NCBI GenBank assembly: GCA_003388555.1
Contig: QQVD01000018.1
Location: 65,274 to 99,644 of the forward strand
From: Acidobacteriota bacterium
GTDB lineage: Bacteria; Acidobacteriota; Thermoanaerobaculia; Multivoradales; Multivoraceae
Direction: 5' to 3'
Length of the DNA stretch: 34,371 bases
A program made the position numbers and the translations under genes. Of this stretch, positions 1 through 16,563 are shown piece after piece (the first letter of the stretch is position 1; each line of letters starts with the position of its first letter). The notes under the pieces are model-generated. The model saw only the letters and a program-made list of their open reading frames with translations, was not told the DNA's origin and did no database searches.

Positions 1-1453
1 GATCGACGAAGGACGCCTGGACCTCGATCCGCGGCCGCGAACCCCTGATCGAGATGTAGCCGCTGCGCAGCTCGGCGTCCTGCTCCAGCAGCGGCACGGC
101 GAGGCGGGCGATGCGGGCGCTGCCCAGACGCATCTCGCTGCGGCTGGAGGGATTCGAGCCGCCCAGCGAGTAGCGGGGGAACTCCCCGGGGTCGACCTGC
201 GCCACCACACCCCCGTCGACCGTGACGTCGACGAAGTTGAACCGGACCTGGCCGACCCCGGTCGGCCCGCCTCGATTCGCCAGCGCCACACGCAGGCGGG
301 AACCTCCGCCCTCCACCTCCAGCTCGAGTCGAGGCGGGCGTGGGCCGGAGACGAGAACGTCGAGCGCCTCCTCGAGGCCGATGCCGACGGCGCTCTGCGC
401 ATCGACGAAGCCGGCCAGGATCGGAGCCACTCTGGAGCCGACGCTGTCGCCACCGCCGGCGTCCTCACCGGCATCGAGCTCCGCCAGTGAGCGCAGCGCA
501 CGCCCGACGTGTTGGGCCGTCGGTCGGGAGATGCGCAGCGCGCTCCCCGCTCGCGGCGACGGCGACTCGCCCGGCTCGAAGCCGCTCGGGAAGGTGAAGG
601 AGAACACCTGGCGGTCGTAGCCCTCGAAGCGAAAGGCGCCATCCACCGACCCGGCGGCGGCGCGCAACGCCGCCCTCTCGACGGCCAGATCGAGGACGGT
701 GCCATTGGACGCGGCGACCAGACGACCAGAGCACCGCACCACCGCGCGCAGCGGCACCCCGAGACCGACCAGCTCGCGCAGCCGCGGCAGCGCCCGGCTC
801 AACTCCCACCGGATCGGCATGTCGGCCTGGTCGGGCGGCTGGCCGTAGAGCTCGACCACCGCGTAGTCGAACGACTTCCCGGTCTGTCTGGCCACCTCGC
901 TGGCCGCGACGTCGTCCGGGGCGAGGACGCCGAGTGCCAGGTCGTCCTCCAGCTCCCGCCGCAGCCGACGCAGCGCCGCGACCTGTGCTTCGCCGAGCTC
1001 CAGATCCTCGATCCAGAGCAGGACTCCGGCGAGATCGTCGCCACGGTTCCCGAGGTCGAGCCTGAGCCCGCGGAGCGACGTCGCCAGAGTCTCCCCCCAC
1101 TCCTCCGGCGTCGAGGCGAGCAGACGTGAGCGCACCACCAGGTGCACCGGCAACTGCACCGAGCGTCGTCCGGCTCGGGCCAGCTCATCGGCTGGGATCA
1201 GGGTACCGTCGAGCTGCGTGCTGGCGGCATCGAGGAACTGCGCCGCGATACCCGACCGGCGCAGCCTGCCGGCCTCGAGTCGCTGGGTCGTCCACTCCGT
1301 GCGCTCCTCCGGAGTCCACCACACCGCGGCGCCGACCGTCGCCTCGCGCCCTCGTCCATCGTCGCCGCAGGCAGCCGCCAGCCACGCTGCCAGGACCATC
1401 GGCAGGAGGCTCAGCGCGCCGCGGCGGGCACTGCTACGAAGGCTCGGGGTCAT
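1..1453 (-). CDS. Putative lipoprotein, C-terminus cut by window edge
   Basis: The frame opens at the ATG at 1453 and stays open for 484 codons to the left edge, so the gene is partial. The N-terminus is a lipoprotein signal: a basic start, a hydrophobic stretch (about residues 12-28) and a lipobox LAAAC with Cys29, followed by G-D-D. Gly at +2 fits release to the outer membrane under the E. coli rule. The mature part has no motif I recognise with confidence. Alternating hydrophobic strands and helices around residues 130-240, including a DYAVVELYG segment, faintly recall TIM-barrel DUF3142-like proteins, but this is only a guess. The last 100 residues look beta-rich. The start lies 15 nt after the histidine-kinase stop codon, so the two are very likely co-transcribed, and the lipoprotein may be a periplasmic or outer-membrane partner of that kinase. 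Confidence 0.75.
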   Translation of the reverse strand, partial: MTPSLRSSARRGALSLLPMVLAAWLAAACGDDGRGREATVGAAVWWTPEERTEWTTQRLEAGRLRRSGIAAQFLDAASTQLDGTLIPADELARAGRRSVQLPVHLVVRSRLLASTPEEWGETLATSLRGLRLDLGNRGDDLAGVLLWIEDLELGEAQVAALRRLRRELEDDLALGVLAPDDVAASEVARQTGKSFDYAVVELYGQPPDQADMPIRWELSRALPRLRELVGLGVPLRAVVRCSGRLVAASNGTVLDLAVERAALRAAAGSVDGAFRFEGYDRQVFSFTFPSGFEPGESPSPRAGSALRISRPTAQHVGRALRSLAELDAGEDAGGGDSVGSRVAPILAGFVDAQSAVGIGLEEALDVLVSGPRPPRLELEVEGGGSRLRVALANRGGPTGVGQVRFNFVDVTVDGGVVAQVDPGEFPRYSLGGSNPSSRSEMRLGSARIARLAVPLLEQDAELRSGYISIRGSRPRIEVQASFVD

Positions 1454-1468
1454 CGGCACGCGCGGAGT

Positions 1469-4400
1469 CTAAGGGAGCCCGTCGACCTCGGCGGCAGAAG
1501 TCGATCCGGCGTCGCCCGCCCCGCTCTCCCGGCTCTCGTCCGACGCCGCCTCTCCGACGCTCTCCGTCGCCGCCGCCACTTCGCCCCGCGAGTTGCCCGG
1601 GGTAGGCGTGCCTGTCGACACGAGAGGCAGTCGCAGCACCGTGCGCAGGCCCCGTCCTTCGTTGCGGAAGGCCCGCAGCGTGCCGCCGTGCTGCTCCGCG
1701 ATGCGGCGGGAGATGGCCAGCCCGAGGCCTGTTCCACCGCTCTTGGTCGAGAAGTTGGGCTCGAAGATCCGCTCGACTTCTCCGTCGCCCTCCGGCACGC
1801 CCACGCCGTCGTCCACCACCTCCACCACCGCCCAGCCGCCGTGGCGACGGCAGCCGACCTCGACGTGCCCGTCGCGACCTCCGCGCTGGCACGCGGCGAT
1901 CGAGTTCTCGATCAGGTTCCGCACGATGCGGGCCACCTGCCGCTCGTCGTGCAACACCACCAGGGGCCGTGGGTCTGCGGACTCGTTGCCCTGCCACGAC
2001 ACCTCGACCGAATCGGCGTGACGGTAGCCGTCGACCACTCCGCGCACCGTCTTCTCGAGATCGACCGGCCGCCGGTCGAGGTTGGGGACGCGGTAGAAGG
2101 ACGAGAACTCCGCCGCGGTCTTCTGCAGCTCCTCGACCTGTTCGAGGATGTTCGCGACGCAGGGCTCGAAGACCTCGTCGAAACGCTCCGGCCGCTCGCG
2201 CCGCACCCGGCGCAGGTGTTCCGCCGACAGACGGATCGGGGTCAGCGGATTCTTGATCTCGTGCGCGATCATGCGCGTCATCTGCGCCCAGGCGGCGAGA
2301 CGCTGGCCGCGCAGGACCTCGGTGACGTCCTCTCCGATCAGGAGCCCCCGCAACTCCTCGGAGTGAGGCGTAGGCACCCAGACCACCGCCAGCTCGCGCA
2401 GCGCCGCATCGTCCGACGACTGCGCTGCCTCGACGCCGAAGCTGGTGCGCCGCACCTCGAGCGGATGGAAGAAGTCGTCGGGAAGCAGAGCGAGTCCGCG
2501 ACTTCCCGCCAGGCGAGCCTGCAGCGAGTCGCCCGATCGCACCGCGAACAGCTCGCCGGCACTGGGATTGGCGACGGCGATGCCACCCTCGCGATCGACC
2601 GCGATCACCGCGGAGGTGATGTTGGCGAGCACCGTCTCGAGCAACGTCTTCTCGTTGACCAGCTCGGCACGCGCCGAGGCGACCCTCCGCGCCATCACGT
2701 CGACCGCCCGCACCAGCGCCGCGAGCTCGGGCTCGCGTGGATCCAGGTTCAATCGACTGGCGCCTTCCGAGATCTGCACGGTGCCGGCGACGATCTCCTC
2801 GATCGGACGCGAGAAGTTGCGCGCCAGCCGCCGCCCCACGGCGAGCAGCACCATCAACAGCGCCACGTTGAGGAGCAGCGACTGCTGGGCGAGGCCCTCG
2901 AACTGCGCCGCCGAATCCCGCCCTTGCGCGAGCAGCGGAATCGAGAGCACCAGTCCGCTCTGCGCCTCGCCGCTGCCCTCGAGGTCGAAGGAGAGTGCCT
3001 TGTAGATCTCGAAGTGGGTCGCGGCGTCGGCGTGCCGTTCGCGCACCGCCACCTGGGTCGGCTCACGCGACAGGCGACGTTGCACTTCGCTGGGGATCAC
3101 CAGCGGGACCAGACCCGCGGTGATCAGCTCCGGGCGACTGCTGGTGGCGATCTCCCCGCGCCAGTAGAGGTTGAGCTCGCTGCCGACGACGACGGGCAGC
3201 CAGTCGAGCAGCCCGTCCTCGAAGATCGCGGTCAGGCTGTACCCCGGGCGCACTGTCGGCAGGTACTCGGCGACCAGGCGCTCGGAGGCTCGCAGCCCGG
3301 TCTCCCCCGCCTTGCGCTGATCAGCGGTGGAGCGCTGCTCGGCACTGCGGAAGAGGAAGACGTTGAACAGCGCCAGCGGAACCACCGCGAGACCGACGAC
3401 GACCATCAGCAGCTTGCGCGAATAGCTCAGCAGTGCCCGCCTCGCCGCCAGCCTGAGCGCCGGAGAGACGAGCAGCAGCAGCGACGCCACGACGGCGATC
3501 ACCGCGGCCGAGGCGGCGATCACCGAGGCCGCCGGCATCGCCGCCTGCAGGGCGCGCTCCGCTACGCCGCGCGGCGGAACGACCAGGGTGGCGATGGCGT
3601 CCAGCTCGGGCAGCCGTCGCGCCAGGACCCAACCGCCTCCGGCTCCGCGCCGCCAGCGAAGCGGCGCCTGCTCACCGACGTCCGGCGACGCGCCGGGGCC
3701 GGCAGGCTCGGCAGGTGCGGCGGGCGCCGCGCCGAGCGACACCTCGTTCCACTGGCCGACCCCGATACGTCGACGCGGAGTCGGCCGGTCGGGCTGGGAA
3801 GTGGTCACCACCAGCGCTGCTGCCTCGGGCAGGCTCCAGGTCTCGAGCTGAGACTCCAGCAGCAGGTCGGTCGCCACGGCGCCCCCCTCGGCCTGCCAGT
3901 CGGCCCGCCCGGGACGGAGCAGGGGAATTGTCCAGGCCCGGATGGTGCCCCAGCGCCGGCCGTCGACGAAGATCTCGCGGTCGATGCGGACCACGGCGTT
4001 GTTCCACCACTCGTCGAAGCCACCGTCCGGCCAGCGCCTCGAGCCGAGGTCGAGCGAGGTGCCGCCGCGGGCCAGGGGCAACCCGTAGGAGAACGAGGCC
4101 ACCGCGAGACCTTCCGGGTCCTCCACCGCCACGGCAGACAGCCCGACGACCTCGGCCAGCGGCGAAGCCTCCCACAGCGCCAGGGCGAGGTCGTCGGCAC
4201 GGCTCAACGAATCGGGGTGGCCGACCGCGAGATCGGTGATCGCGAGCTCCTGCCAGCTCCGGTCCACGTCTCGGGCGAAGCTCTCGGCACTGTCGGCGTC
4301 GAGGATGCGCTCCTCGCCGAGAGCGATCCGCGCCATCGCTTCCCGGCTGGCGGCGCGTTGACACGTCACGGCGAGACCGAGGGCGAGTGCGCTGCAGCCG

Positions 4401-5932
4401 GCGAAGGCCAACCATCGTTCGACCCAGCTGTTCGCTCCCGCTCCGGCCGCCGCCAGAGCCGCCAGCGACACTCCGGCGACCAGGGTGGCGGTCACCGTGC
4501 GCCCGGCCTCCACCGAGAGCGAGCCGACCAGCACCGCGATCGCAAGCGTCACCAGCAGGGTCGGCAGGAGCGGCGTCGAGCTACGTCGCAGCAGCACGCC
4601 GATCGCCACCGCGGCGCCCCAGGCGAAGAGGGCCAGGCCGATCCGAAGGGCCCAGGCATCGGCACCGGCGAAGATCGAATCTCCCAGTCTGGGACCCGAG
4701 CCGAGGTCGATCCAGGCGAAGAAGCTCCGCATCGCGAGCGCCGCCGCAGCGCCGGCCCCCGCGGCGACAGGCCAGCGCCACACACCGAGACGCGGTCGCC
4801 AGGCGCGGGTGACGGCGACGGTCCCGATCAGCGCCGCTCCCGCCAAGGCCGGCAGCAGCAGCCTCGGGTCGTCTCCACCGGCGGCGAGCCACCAGAGACC
4901 TCCAGCCACCAGCAGCGCCGCAACGGCGACCGCAAACCGCTGCCCCGCTTCGAGCGGCAGGTCCTCCGAGCTGGGGAGTGTCAGCAGGAAGAGGTCACGA
5001 GTCGCCCAGATCGCCAGCGCCGCCAGGGTCGCGATCACCAGCCAGGAGACCCAGGTCGGTGCCGAGCGGTGGCTCGCGGCGTCCCTGCGGACCCGCAGCA
5101 CGTAGTCCTCGCGCACCGTACGCTCCTGCCAGAGGTCGAGGAGCGAGTCGGGCTCGACGCCCGCCCAGCGGCGCAGCGACCAGACGCGTTGCCGCCTCTC
5201 CGCCGGCCGGTCCGCATGGGCGGTCAGTGGCAGCCGTGAGGTCGAATCGCTGCGCGCGACCACCACTCGCCGGCCGCTGCCGTCCTGCACATCGGCGGCA
5301 GCGAAACGAGTCACAGCGGTGACCGAGGAGACGGCGGCGAAGCCTGCCCGGTCGAGCTCGTCCCACGGAACCGGATGACGCAGGTCCGGCCCCGACCACG
5401 CCTCCGCCCGGCGCCGCTCGGCATCACTGAGCAGCAACGTCAGGTGAGGCGTGGCGCGGGCCGCGGCCTGCAACCTGTCGCCGGCGGAGCTGGAGACTCC
5501 TTCCCACTCAGGCGTCGCGCCCGAATCCGGCGGCGGGGCCGCGTGGCCCGAACTGCCAAGCGCTATCTCGCGGCCCAGCCGTTCCGCCTCCTCCACCATA
5601 CGATCGCAGTCGAGGGCGATCTGTTCGGCCAGCGCCCGCACCCGGTCGGCCTGGGGCCGCAGGTTCCATCGCGCGCTGGGAAGCGTCGCCGCGGCCAGCG
5701 TGACGCAGAGCCCGACCAGCAACAGGTCGAGCAGCCGGCCGCGGCCGCTGCCGTTCGCCGCCCGCGCATCGAGGAGGCGACCTCGATGGGACACCCACAC
5801 ACCGAGGCCGAGCAGCAGTGCCGCGACGGAGAACGCCGCGCTCGCCGCAGCCGGACTGCGGTCGAGGACCAGCCCGCCGATCCCGAGCAGCGCGACCAGC
5901 CCGTACGGCGTCCAGGCCAGCGAGCGCCTCAT
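1469..5932 (-). CDS. NtrY-like sensor histidine kinase, 1487 aa, 14 predicted TM helices
   Basis: This is a very large membrane sensor kinase. Predicted TM helices lie near residues 8-24, 30-48, 67-85, eight more between 293 and 524, then 800-824, 840-860 and 1017-1035. Three soluble segments (about 86-290, 525-795 and 861-1015) then all fall outside the membrane, and helix parity agrees with this. A HAMP region (1036-1088), a PAS-like domain (about 1092-1200), HisKA and HATPase_c follow. The H-box is IAHEIKNPLTPIRLSAEHL with His1224 (codon 2261-2263), the NtrY-type signature. The N-box is RNLIENS, the D-box DDGVG and the G2 box GTGLGL. The last 50 residues look disordered. ATG 5932 was chosen because no start codon lies between it and the upstream stop at 5976, although the Shine-Dalgarno is poor. 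It should autophosphorylate on His1224, but its partner is uncertain because the adjacent regulator has no receiver domain. NtrY proteins are usually half this size. Confidence 0.93.
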   Translation of the reverse strand: MRRSLAWTPYGLVALLGIGGLVLDRSPAAASAAFSVAALLLGLGVWVSHRGRLLDARAANGSGRGRLLDLLLVGLCVTLAAATLPSARWNLRPQADRVRALAEQIALDCDRMVEEAERLGREIALGSSGHAAPPPDSGATPEWEGVSSSAGDRLQAAARATPHLTLLLSDAERRRAEAWSGPDLRHPVPWDELDRAGFAAVSSVTAVTRFAAADVQDGSGRRVVVARSDSTSRLPLTAHADRPAERRQRVWSLRRWAGVEPDSLLDLWQERTVREDYVLRVRRDAASHRSAPTWVSWLVIATLAALAIWATRDLFLLTLPSSEDLPLEAGQRFAVAVAALLVAGGLWWLAAGGDDPRLLLPALAGAALIGTVAVTRAWRPRLGVWRWPVAAGAGAAAALAMRSFFAWIDLGSGPRLGDSIFAGADAWALRIGLALFAWGAAVAIGVLLRRSSTPLLPTLLVTLAIAVLVGSLSVEAGRTVTATLVAGVSLAALAAAGAGANSWVERWLAFAGCSALALGLAVTCQRAASREAMARIALGEERILDADSAESFARDVDRSWQELAITDLAVGHPDSLSRADDLALALWEASPLAEVVGLSAVAVEDPEGLAVASFSYGLPLARGGTSLDLGSRRWPDGGFDEWWNNAVVRIDREIFVDGRRWGTIRAWTIPLLRPGRADWQAEGGAVATDLLLESQLETWSLPEAAALVVTTSQPDRPTPRRRIGVGQWNEVSLGAAPAAPAEPAGPGASPDVGEQAPLRWRRGAGGGWVLARRLPELDAIATLVVPPRGVAERALQAAMPAASVIAASAAVIAVVASLLLLVSPALRLAARRALLSYSRKLLMVVVGLAVVPLALFNVFLFRSAEQRSTADQRKAGETGLRASERLVAEYLPTVRPGYSLTAIFEDGLLDWLPVVVGSELNLYWRGEIATSSRPELITAGLVPLVIPSEVQRRLSREPTQVAVRERHADAATHFEIYKALSFDLEGSGEAQSGLVLSIPLLAQGRDSAAQFEGLAQQSLLLNVALLMVLLAVGRRLARNFSRPIEEIVAGTVQISEGASRLNLDPREPELAALVRAVDVMARRVASARAELVNEKTLLETVLANITSAVIAVDREGGIAVANPSAGELFAVRSGDSLQARLAGSRGLALLPDDFFHPLEVRRTSFGVEAAQSSDDAALRELAVVWVPTPHSEELRGLLIGEDVTEVLRGQRLAAWAQMTRMIAHEIKNPLTPIRLSAEHLRRVRRERPERFDEVFEPCVANILEQVEELQKTAAEFSSFYRVPNLDRRPVDLEKTVRGVVDGYRHADSVEVSWQGNESADPRPLVVLHDERQVARIVRNLIENSIAACQRGGRDGHVEVGCRRHGGWAVVEVVDDGVGVPEGDGEVERIFEPNFSTKSGGTGLGLAISRRIAEQHGGTLRAFRNEGRGLRTVLRLPLVSTGTPTPGNSRGEVAAATESVGEAASDESRESGAGDAGSTSAAEVDGLP

Positions 5933-5975: not shown

Positions 5976-7865
5976 TCACTCGTTGGCGTCCAGTCCGTGC
6001 CGGGACATCTTCTGGGCCAGGCCGTTCCTCGACAGGCCGAGGAGGCGAGCCGCCTGCGACTTGTTGCCCTGGCTCTGGCGCAGTGCCTCACGGATCGCGT
6101 GGCGCTCGACCCGGCCGACCACGTCGGTGAGCCTCAGCTCGCTGCCCGAGATCTCACTCGGATCGGCGCGCTGACCCGGCGCCGGCGTTCGGATCTGCAC
6201 CGGCAGGCAGTCGACGTCCATCGGCGTCTCCGGCTGCGCCAGGTAGACCATGTGTCGGACGACGTTCTCGAGCTCTCTCAGGTTGCCCGGAAACCGGTAG
6301 GCAGTCAGCAGGGAAAGGGCGCGCACGGTGATGCCACGGACCCGCTTCCCTGTCTCGTGGCTGAACCGGTTCACCAGGCTCTGCAGCAGCAGCGGCAGGT
6401 CGTCACGGCGCTCGTGCAGCGCCGGTACCAGGACGGTGAGCTGGGCGAGGCGGTGCAGCAGATCGCGGCGGAAACGACCCCGCTCGCAAAGCTCCTCGAG
6501 GTCCTCGTGGCTCGAAGCGATCAGGCGCGCCGAGAAGGGGGACACCTCGAGCTCGCCGGGGCCGTGCAGCTCCGCCGAGCGGAGGATGCGGACGAGCTCG
6601 CCCTGCGCGTCGAGCGGCAGTGCCTCGACCCGGCGCAGGAAGACGGTGCCGCGGCCCGCCGCGCGCAGCTTCCCCTCTCGCCGCACCGGACCCGTCCTGC
6701 CTTCGATCTCGGCCCCGAACAGCTCGCTGCGCAGGCGCTTGGCATTGGGCTCTTCGCAGTCCACCACCAGGAAGGGCTCGTCGACCGTGGGCCCGGAGAG
6801 ATGGAGCGAGCGAGCGACCAGCTCGTGACCGCTGCCCGCCTCGCCCTGCAGCACGACATGGGCGCCACGGGAGGCGCTGCGGATCGCCTCGCCGAGCAGA
6901 CTCGAGGCATGGGAAGGGCCGAGCACCAGGCCGGGCGCCAGGCGCAGCGAACCCGCCGGCTCCCGCCCCGGGAGGATGGGCTCGTAGCGGCCGACGTGGT
7001 GCACCAGGCCGAGCACCAGGAGATCGGCCAGGGTGGCGAAGCCGAGAACCGGGGTCCAACCCCCGCGCTCGAACGGTGGTGCGTCGACCAGCAGGATGGC
7101 CACCGTGTAGTCACGCTCGAGGGCGCTCAACCGACGAAAGAACAGGCGGAACTCGTCGTCACCGAGCTCGATCGCCTGCTCTCCGAAGGAGTGCACCGCG
7201 TCGGGCTTGACCCCGTCGCAGAGCATGTGGAGCACCGGTTCGGCCTTGCCGACCAGGGCCGGGTCGCTCGCCGCCGCGAACTTGACGCCACAGTTGGGCT
7301 CGAGCGGCCCCTCGAAGAGGAAGCAGGCGCCGCCGCCGAAGTCGTGGAGGACCTGAACCACGATCGACTCGACGCTCACCGCGCTTGCGCTGTCTCCCGC
7401 CACCCACTCGCTGAGCCGCGAGAGGTGCTCGAGCAGCCGGGCTGGGAGGTTCTGGCCGCTGAGGGCGCCACCGCCGTTCGACGGCTCCCCCGGGGCCTGA
7501 ACGGTATGGCTGGAGTCGGCCGCGGCCCTGCCGTCGAGCCTCAGCGAGGGCAGGACGAGCTCCTGGCTGCGTGCGTTCGAGTCCTCGACCAGCAGGGTGA
7601 CGCGGCCGATCTTGATCTCGTCGAGCGTCGCCAGATCGGCCTCGAGACACGAGTGGCCGTTGACCTCCACCGGAAGACCACCGTCCGGCACCGACAGCCG
7701 GACCCGATCCGAACCACGTTCCCGCTCGAGCACCGCCTCGCGATCTCCAGCGGCGTCGCGCTCGAGCACTACATCGCACGAGTCGCTGCCGCCGATCCGT
7801 AGCGGTCCCGACACCATCGGGACGTGGCGGACGCCGGAAGGCGAGAAGACGACGAGCCTCAGCAT
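5976..7865 (-). CDS. FHA-like/GAF-like/degenerate sigma-54-activator-type AAA+/Fis-HTH regulator
   Basis: The 629-residue protein has the layout of an enhancer-binding protein. Residues 1-95 are FHA-like, about 140-295 may be a GAF-like sensor, 312-545 are AAA+ and 585-626 a Fis-type HTH (NKSQAARLLGLSRNGLAQKM). Key residues are missing. Walker A reads GEAGSGHE (Lys replaced by His347), Walker B reads VFLRRV (Asp-Glu replaced by Arg411-Arg412), the switch Asn is Asp369, and GAFTGA is replaced by EGRTGP (388-393). The arginine-finger segment FRRDLLHRL (465-473) and FPGNLRELENV (525-535) remain. The FHA-like part also lacks the GR and SxxH phosphothreonine contacts (IGGS and GDREA instead). I infer a DNA-binding regulator that does not hydrolyse ATP or contact sigma-54 normally. 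It starts 10 nt after a TATCAT box and lies 43 nt upstream of the kinase gene. There is no receiver domain. Confidence 0.9.
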   Translation of the reverse strand: MLRLVVFSPSGVRHVPMVSGPLRIGGSDSCDVVLERDAAGDREAVLERERGSDRVRLSVPDGGLPVEVNGHSCLEADLATLDEIKIGRVTLLVEDSNARSQELVLPSLRLDGRAAADSSHTVQAPGEPSNGGGALSGQNLPARLLEHLSRLSEWVAGDSASAVSVESIVVQVLHDFGGGACFLFEGPLEPNCGVKFAAASDPALVGKAEPVLHMLCDGVKPDAVHSFGEQAIELGDDEFRLFFRRLSALERDYTVAILLVDAPPFERGGWTPVLGFATLADLLVLGLVHHVGRYEPILPGREPAGSLRLAPGLVLGPSHASSLLGEAIRSASRGAHVVLQGEAGSGHELVARSLHLSGPTVDEPFLVVDCEEPNAKRLRSELFGAEIEGRTGPVRREGKLRAAGRGTVFLRRVEALPLDAQGELVRILRSAELHGPGELEVSPFSARLIASSHEDLEELCERGRFRRDLLHRLAQLTVLVPALHERRDDLPLLLQSLVNRFSHETGKRVRGITVRALSLLTAYRFPGNLRELENVVRHMVYLAQPETPMDVDCLPVQIRTPAPGQRADPSEISGSELRLTDVVGRVERHAIREALRQSQGNKSQAARLLGLSRNGLAQKMSRHGLDANE

Positions 7866-15774: not shown

Positions 15775-16563
15775 CTACTCGCCGAAGCGCATACGCACCA
15801 GTCCGAACTGCAGCTCGTCGCCGAGTGCGAACTCGAACGGCACTCCGGTCTCCAGTTTGGAACCGTTGACGAAGGTGCCGTTGGTGGTGCCGATCTCCTC
15901 GGTGAGGAAGTACTTCGCGCCGCGGCGGTAGATCTTGGCGTGGCGCCGCGAGGTCGAGCGTTGGGTGTCGACCTCGCTGAGATCGATGTCGGGGTGGATT
16001 CCGGTCACCGGGTCGTGGCGCCCGATGGTGCTCTCCGAGCCGGCCGAGAGGTGGAACTCGATCCCGGTGTCCTCGTGCACCAGCTTCTGGCGCGCCGTCT
16101 TGCGCGCGTCGACCTGCGGCAGCGATCCGACCAGCTCGAGCGGTCGATCGTCCTGGACGCCGTGCATCGTCTGCAGGAGATCGTCGGTCTCGCGCAGGCG
16201 ACGCGAGAGCTTGCGCATCATGCGCACCGCGATCTCGGGGTTGTTGCGCAGCATCTGATCGAACGTCGAACCGTTGATCTGGATGCAGCGGCTCTCGGTC
16301 AGCGCTCGCGCCGAAGCGGTACGCGGCAGGTCCTCGAGCAGAGCCATCTCGCCGAAGAAGTCACCCTTCTCGAACACCGCGAGCTGGGTCTCCTGTCCAT
16401 CGAGGACCTTGAGGACCTCGATCTGCCCCTCCTGCAGGATGTACATCTCGGTGCCGAGATCGCCCTCGCGAAAGAGGAACTCTCCGGCCGCGAACTCGAC
16501 CGTGAACTGCTCGGTGGAGTGAGATCTCGCGTTCGAGTTGCCGGTCTTGAAGACGGTCTTCAT
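15775..16563 (-). CDS. Cyclic-nucleotide-binding domain plus FHA domain protein
   Basis: This 262-residue soluble protein joins two sensor domains and lacks the HTH of CRP-type regulators. Residues about 18-135 form a cNMP-binding beta-barrel (AGEFLFREGDLGTEMYILQEG, then the phosphate-cassette-like FGEMALLEDLPRTASARA, where the Arg sits in its usual place). Residues about 178-260 form an intact FHA domain with IGRHDP, STSRRHAKI and NGTFVNGSKL, so phosphothreonine binding is expected. It may pass a cyclic-nucleotide signal to a Thr-phosphorylated partner; no Ser/Thr kinase gene lies in this window. The ATG at 16563 is 6 nt after the ldcA-like stop, so co-transcription with the peptidase is likely. 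Proteins of this type are frequent in Acidobacteriota, Myxococcota and Cyanobacteria. Confidence 0.9.
   Translation of the reverse strand: MKTVFKTGNSNARSHSTEQFTVEFAAGEFLFREGDLGTEMYILQEGQIEVLKVLDGQETQLAVFEKGDFFGEMALLEDLPRTASARALTESRCIQINGSTFDQMLRNNPEIAVRMMRKLSRRLRETDDLLQTMHGVQDDRPLELVGSLPQVDARKTARQKLVHEDTGIEFHLSAGSESTIGRHDPVTGIHPDIDLSEVDTQRSTSRRHAKIYRRGAKYFLTEEIGTTNGTFVNGSKLETGVPFEFALGDELQFGLVRMRFGE

Follow-up and report, generated by a model that had tools for sequence, protein, structure and literature searches.

Bacterial enhancer-binding proteins (bEBPs) are ATP-driven activators, and the locus described here raises the question of what such a protein can do once the residues of its nucleotide site and of its sigma-54 contact have been replaced. 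The gene lies in a stretch of 34,371 nt (hereafter the window) of Acidobacteriota bacterium GCA_003388555.1 (GTDB lineage Acidobacteriota; Thermoanaerobaculia; Multivoradales; Multivoraceae), i.e., positions 65,274–99,644 of the forward strand of contig QQVD01000018.1. The reading that we favor is that it probably encodes a DNA-binding transcription regulator that descends from sigma-54 activators, works independently of sigma-54 and does not hydrolyze ATP.

The window protein and its motifs

The reading frame begins with ATG, has no internal stops and keeps a third-position GC of 0.80–0.93 per 60-codon block (the last block being shorter), which is the pattern of a coding gene throughout. Pfam placed Sigma54_activat (PF00158) at residues 324–478 with 109.4 bits (cut-off 20.2), AAA_lid_14 at residues 485–566 and HTH_8 at residues 585–622 (5.6e-13), and the best profile match in the PDB was ZraR (1ojl). 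The N-terminus gave a weak FHA-like match at residues 15–94 (Yop-YscD_cpl, 21 bits, below the cut-off), and no Pfam match was found for the middle domain. In a single-sequence AlphaFold model the pLDDT was 36, and only about 40 residues, at the HTH end, exceeded 70.

The original prediction had described an intact 629-codon frame with Walker A, Walker B, the switch Asn and GAFTGA all replaced, and every one of these motif readings was correct (Table 1). The protein is like the sigma-54-dependent bEBPs (NtrC, PspF, ZraR) in its AAA+ fold, lid, Fis HTH and both Arg fingers, but unlike them it has no GAFTGA, no switch Asn, no Walker A Lys and no Walker B acids. The window genome (6.8 Mb) contains 27 PF00158 matches and one sigma-54 gene, so that the motif losses do not merely follow from the absence of this factor. 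Motifs were read in the best eight of these 27 matches (L001–L008) in addition to the window gene, and all eight have Walker A and B intact together with GAFTGA or GSFTGA. Since the eight best EBPs of the same genome are intact and independent genomes show the losses again, chance can be excluded.

Table 1. Features of the regulator gene and its downstream neighbors, in window coordinates.
Feature	Position	Strand	Basis
c2, uncharacterised, 505 aa, cut by the window end	2..1453	-	full length at L062:9910-11427
Large histidine kinase, 1487 aa, HAMP/HisKA/HATPase; HEIKNP, NLIENS, DDGVGV and GGTGLGL present	1469..5932	-	Pfam, motifs
Putative pseudo-ATPase bEBP-like regulator, 629 aa	5976..7865	-	ORF; Pfam Sigma54_activat, AAA_lid_14, HTH_8; orthologues
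N-terminal FHA-type domain, residues 1-98, degenerate in the window protein	7572..7865	-	Pfam and low identity
Middle domain, residues 141-300, ending in the conserved linker LGLVHHVGxYEPILPG	6966..7445	-	alignment, Pfam scan
Former Walker A GEAGSGHE, residues 341-348, Lys to His347	6822..6845	-	sequence, alignment
Former switch Asn, now Asp369	6759..6761	-	alignment
Rebuilt L1 loop EGRTGP, residues 388-393, at the GAFTGA position	6687..6704	-	sequence, alignment
Former Walker B FLRRV, residues 409-413, Asp-Glu to Arg411-Arg412	6627..6641	-	sequence, alignment
Arg-finger segment RRDLLHRL from residue 466, with R466 (invariant in the family) and R472 (variable)	6450..6470	-	alignment
Sensor II segment PGNLREL, residues 526-532	6270..6290	-	sequence, alignment
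Fis-type HTH, residues 577-625	5991..6137	-	Pfam HTH_8; conservation

The orthologue family and the order of its losses

A protein search of 72 genomes of the order recovered full- or part-length orthologues in 21 of them, the window's own included; the 22nd match, L029, falls in the next group. The identical 21 were returned by a profile search over 148 genomes of the class, where all scored at least 585.9 bits and the next best match 330.8. Among 396 genomes sampled from the phylum the family was present in six, all of the same order, and a scan of genome contigs gave one distant EBP, in a Myxococcales MAG, with GAFTGA intact. For the alignment, the tree and the counts that follow we used 20 of the 21 orthologues, leaving out L028 (unread bases); L081 and L083, which repeat L030 and L029, were dropped. 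The window protein is row L009 and belongs to family f1, with members L009, L010 and L024.

Aligning the AAA+ motifs of the orthologues, as the original prediction had proposed, we found that the losses recur across the 20 members. None of them has GAFTGA or the switch Asn (14/16 canonical rows have this Asn), a result that supports, at the level of motifs, the suggested independence from sigma-54. The nucleotide site has been lost to different degrees. Walker A Lys is present in 13 members, seven of which have Ser for the preceding Gly, and is replaced by His, Arg or Leu in the other seven, the window protein among them. Walker B retains its Asp in 6/20 and its Glu in 3/20, with the full Asp-Glu pair in three, while the P-loop glycines 341 and 344 are found in 20/20. 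In L012 and L015 the Walker A and B motifs are still intact; the contrary case foreseen for the window protein, i.e., intact orthologues together with a sequencing error, holds in this first part only, since an intact frame and losses common to orthologues rule out a sequencing error or frameshift. The Arg fingers said to be kept are indeed both present in the window protein, but only the first, R466, is invariant, and R472 occurs in 14/20. Similarly, FPGNLRELENV is there as described (from residue 525), but its Arg, the sensor II residue, is absent from 18/20 members, the window protein being one of the two that have it.

At the former sigma-54 loop the family has a motif of its own, FGAExxG[KR] in 20/20, with the majority consensus GKxGPVRREGK over the L1 region and PVRR in 12/20. 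Pfam FHA matched 16 of the 20 members, two of the 20 having no N-terminus; L009 and L010 of f1 gave no FHA match and only the related Yop-YscD_cpl. No response-regulator or ACT domain was matched by Pfam in any of the 20.

The nearest relatives, distributed across the class, carry GVATGV or a variant at the GAFTGA position. We fetched 29 such rows, a part of a larger set (L076–L080, L082, L084–L103 and L029–L031). Like the family they have AAA+, lid and HTH (29/29), mostly preceded by a Pfam FHA domain (28/29), and a shortened L1 loop: the span from FG to R396 is 14 in 20/20 family members and in 28/29 GVATGV rows (13 in the other row), against 15 in 16/16 canonical rows. The recognition-helix core SRNGL is also common to 20/20 family members and 13/29 GVATGV rows, against 0/16 canonical ones. 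Unlike the family, the GVATGV proteins retain nearly all ATPase motifs (Walker A Lys 29/29, Walker B Asp 29/29 and Glu 27/29, switch Asn 27/29, sensor II Arg 29/29). One further GVATGV protein, L125, comes from outside the class.

In a tree of 65 rows, built with the motif columns removed, the 20 family rows form a single clade (support 100/100) that groups with the GVATGV rows at 97/93, leaving the 16 canonical EBPs outside. The tree does not distinguish a family nested among the GVATGV rows from one placed next to them, and L029 and L039 sit on long branches in it; the f1 clade also has long branches, and the branch order within the family is poorly resolved. Over all 65 rows the tree requires three changes at Walker A Lys, four at Walker B Asp, five at its Glu, five at the switch Asn and three at the sensor II Arg. 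Because the GVATGV relatives have an altered loop and yet nearly all the ATPase motifs, and given these change counts, the sequences are most simply read as a sigma-54 loop that was altered first and an ATPase site that was lost later and piecemeal. The coordinated losses of the original prediction would accordingly be replaced by a stepwise history.

Selection on the regulator and its gene neighborhood

The strongest sign that the altered proteins still matter comes from the pair L011 and L013, in which Walker A Lys has become Leu and the Walker B acids Gln-Gly. Their dN/dS of 0.051 for AAA+ plus lid (0.070 overall) is hard to reconcile with decay and is, as far as sequence comparison can tell, the best evidence that a dead AAA+ domain matters. 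Closer to the window the picture is less clear. The nearest relative of the window protein is L024, with 58% identity over its available part, and between the two dN/dS is 0.40 for AAA+, 0.18 for the lid and 0.19 for the HTH, although here dS is saturated and inflates the ratio. Against the non-f1 members the mean identity of the window protein rises from the FHA domain (0.340) through AAA+ (0.446) and lid (0.515) to the HTH (0.682), and reaches 0.836 in the recognition region (residues 600–622), which together with the HTH_8 match bears out the good Fis HTH that had been noted. Selection appears to have preserved the part that reads DNA as well as the AAA+ scaffold.

The mean identity of f1 to the rest of the family over AAA+ and lid is 0.485, compared to 0.655 within the rest. 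The catalytic domain of the neighboring histidine kinase behaves in a similar way (0.476 and 0.604), so that much of the fast f1 branch is lineage-wide, the drop in the regulator being somewhat larger. The window copy is less constrained than its relatives and, with the gene also missing from a sister genus (see below), some relaxation in its own lineage is real. The proposal that the protein has been repurposed rather than decayed stands for the family, on the order-wide distribution, the L011/L013 ratio and the conserved recognition residues, and has to be tempered for f1 by this relaxation. A pseudogene of a canonical EBP was rejected for the family by dN/dS, and for the window's own branch it stays among the rival explanations weighed below.

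In the window the regulator gene starts 49 nt after cmk and ends 43 nt ahead of the histidine kinase, which is probably located in the membrane as it has 12 hydrophobic segments. The kinase follows on the same strand in 16 of the 21 orthologue loci, in 11 directly and in five with hutU between (one of these five carries an extra call on the opposite strand); of the remaining five, three are close to a contig end, and in the other two the surrounding sequence contains no kinase. Its H-box is kept in 17/17 members read. However, the N-terminal part of the kinase was matched in 64 of the 72 genomes of the order, compared to 21 for the regulator. The kinase is therefore independent of the regulator, and their linkage is unspecific and their co-occurrence uninformative. 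Downstream of the kinase, c2 has a lipoprotein-like start and no Pfam or NCBIfam match; it is present in 22/72 genomes of the order, and its cluster comes after the kinase in 12 loci.

The sister genus g2, of the same family, gave no match to the regulator at 1e-60 in any of its 21 genomes. In the three g2 loci that we read (L105, L106 and L107) scpA, scpB, rluB, cmk and the kinase are ordered as in the window, but there is no regulator gene, and the call for cmk runs 4 nt into that for the kinase. As a separate observation, among 20 loci fetched around the kinase there are 13 (L108–L115, L117, L119–L121 and L123) in which it immediately follows hutU (urocanate hydratase), 12 of the 13 being from genomes without the regulator, a stable pairing for which the reason is not obvious.

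Possible modes of action

The existence of sigma-54-independent descendants of bEBPs is not new. According to PMC3162934 and PMC10274813, small deletions or substitutions have removed the loop that contacts sigma-54 from the bEBPs without GAFTGA; in the first of these papers, TyrR, DhaR and HupR have been shown to act with sigma-70 and VpsR is judged sigma-54-independent. The protein described here resembles this group (which also includes R. capsulatus and Caulobacter NtrC) in having a bEBP scaffold and HTH and no GAFTGA. It differs from the TyrR/HupR/NtrC group in that its family associates with FHA-EBPs and has no response-regulator or ACT domain match. In PMC10274813, ATP binding is said to be needed by R. 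capsulatus NtrC and the residues of Walker A and B by Caulobacter NtrC, whereas VpsR is described as needing no ATP; the window protein, having lost the nucleotide-site residues as well, goes beyond both NtrC proteins in the residues lost. The variant described here, an FHA-EBP lineage with a graded loss of the active site, did not appear among the matches listed from the open-licence literature, and neither did FHA-bearing bEBPs that lack GAFTGA or the Walker motifs.

For PspF and NtrC1, a power stroke that acts on sigma-54 RNA polymerase has been described (PMC7175178). Without the Walker residues, the switch Asn and GAFTGA, the window protein would be incapable of it. The AAA+ domain may instead serve as an oligomerisation scaffold that sets out pairs of HTH domains, and the regulator would bind operators and repress or activate sigma-70-type promoters, in the manner of TyrR, HupR, VpsR and the NtrC proteins lacking GAFTGA. 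In most orthologues the switch would be phosphothreonine-dependent binding to the FHA domain; in the window protein, where this domain has degenerated too, the input may come through the middle domain, or there may be none. To judge from gene order only, we would guess that it most likely acts on its own operon (regulator, histidine kinase and c2) and on the neighbors. A pattern scan of the window for the -24/-12 sites of sigma-54, which the original prediction had proposed to look for near binding sites, gave four sites with at most one mismatch when 4.53 were expected, i.e., chance level. In the upstream regions of 19 orthologues no shared operator palindrome was detected, as the best of 30 shuffles had dyads that were shared at least as widely. 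Some upstream words of 8 or 9 bases did exceed the shuffles (9/19 against at most 7, and 8 against at most 4), and were discarded as operator candidates: of six traced, most copies lay inside the called upstream gene (318–350 aa, hemE cluster).

This reading, a regulator independent of both sigma-54 and ATP hydrolysis, has to be weighed against others. In f1 the gene could be on its way out, with constraint slackened after the ATPase and the sigma-54 contact were lost, the FHA domain degenerated and one genus having dropped the gene altogether. The window protein and L010, which have lost the Walker A, Walker B and switch residues and the recognizable FHA domain, would be expected under such a process, as would the long f1 branches, the AAA+ dN/dS between L009 and L024 and the g2 genomes, where cmk adjoins the kinase. 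We nevertheless consider it unlikely: the frame is open in all three f1 members (in L024 over its available part), the divergence of the kinase makes the fast branch largely lineage-wide, the saturated dS inflates the one high ratio, and the recognition region of L009 is as conserved as elsewhere.

It also seems improbable that the site still binds a nucleotide, or a nucleotide second messenger, without hydrolysis and acts as a ligand-gated switch. There are precedents in R. capsulatus NtrC, with its need for ATP binding only, and in FleQ, which binds c-di-GMP at Walker A according to the title of a reference cited in PMC10723142, and the invariant P-loop glycines and R466, with the Lys kept in most members, would suit such a role. 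Against it, the Lys has been replaced in seven members including the window protein, the switch Asn is lost throughout and the sensor II Arg nearly so, though the window protein keeps the latter. We give very little credence to the idea that the protein interferes with ATP-competent FHA-EBP paralogues, either as a dead subunit that poisons mixed rings or as a competitor for the sites of these paralogues. The SRNGL core shared with part of the GVATGV rows is what such a competitor might have, but 13 of the 21 genomes (that of the window is one of them) have no second match past 1e-80, as seen with eight candidates scored per genome and within the limit set by this threshold.

Returning to the favored regulator, we tentatively extend it to the whole order, as a bEBP lineage in which the AAA+ ring might have been kept by selection after nucleotide chemistry and sigma-54 contact were lost, with L1 rebuilt as a conserved basic motif that makes a new contact to DNA or RNA polymerase. 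If true, bEBP descendants would have a further working mode, in which a scaffold free of nucleotide is read out through FHA signalling. Several stages are found here side by side, from canonical EBPs through FHA-EBPs with an altered loop to orthologues that retain some of the active-site residues and others in which the site is fully dead. This makes the order of loss visible and provides natural variants with which to ask what role an AAA+ ring plays in a transcription factor that burns no ATP. Annotation by the sigma-54 interaction-domain match would present these proteins as sigma-54-dependent activators, very probably in error. The GVATGV FHA-EBPs, with their largely intact ATPase motifs, may or may not still work with sigma-54.

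Two other genes with FHA domains were noticed. Near the locus, the window encodes at 15775–16563 (minus strand) a protein in which an FHA domain comes after one that binds cyclic nucleotides. In another locus (L053:10866–12539, minus strand) the regulator gene has immediately upstream of it a gene for an FHA-GAF-SpoIIE phosphatase, the cluster of which occurs in five orthologue loci and is a possible partner in FHA signalling.
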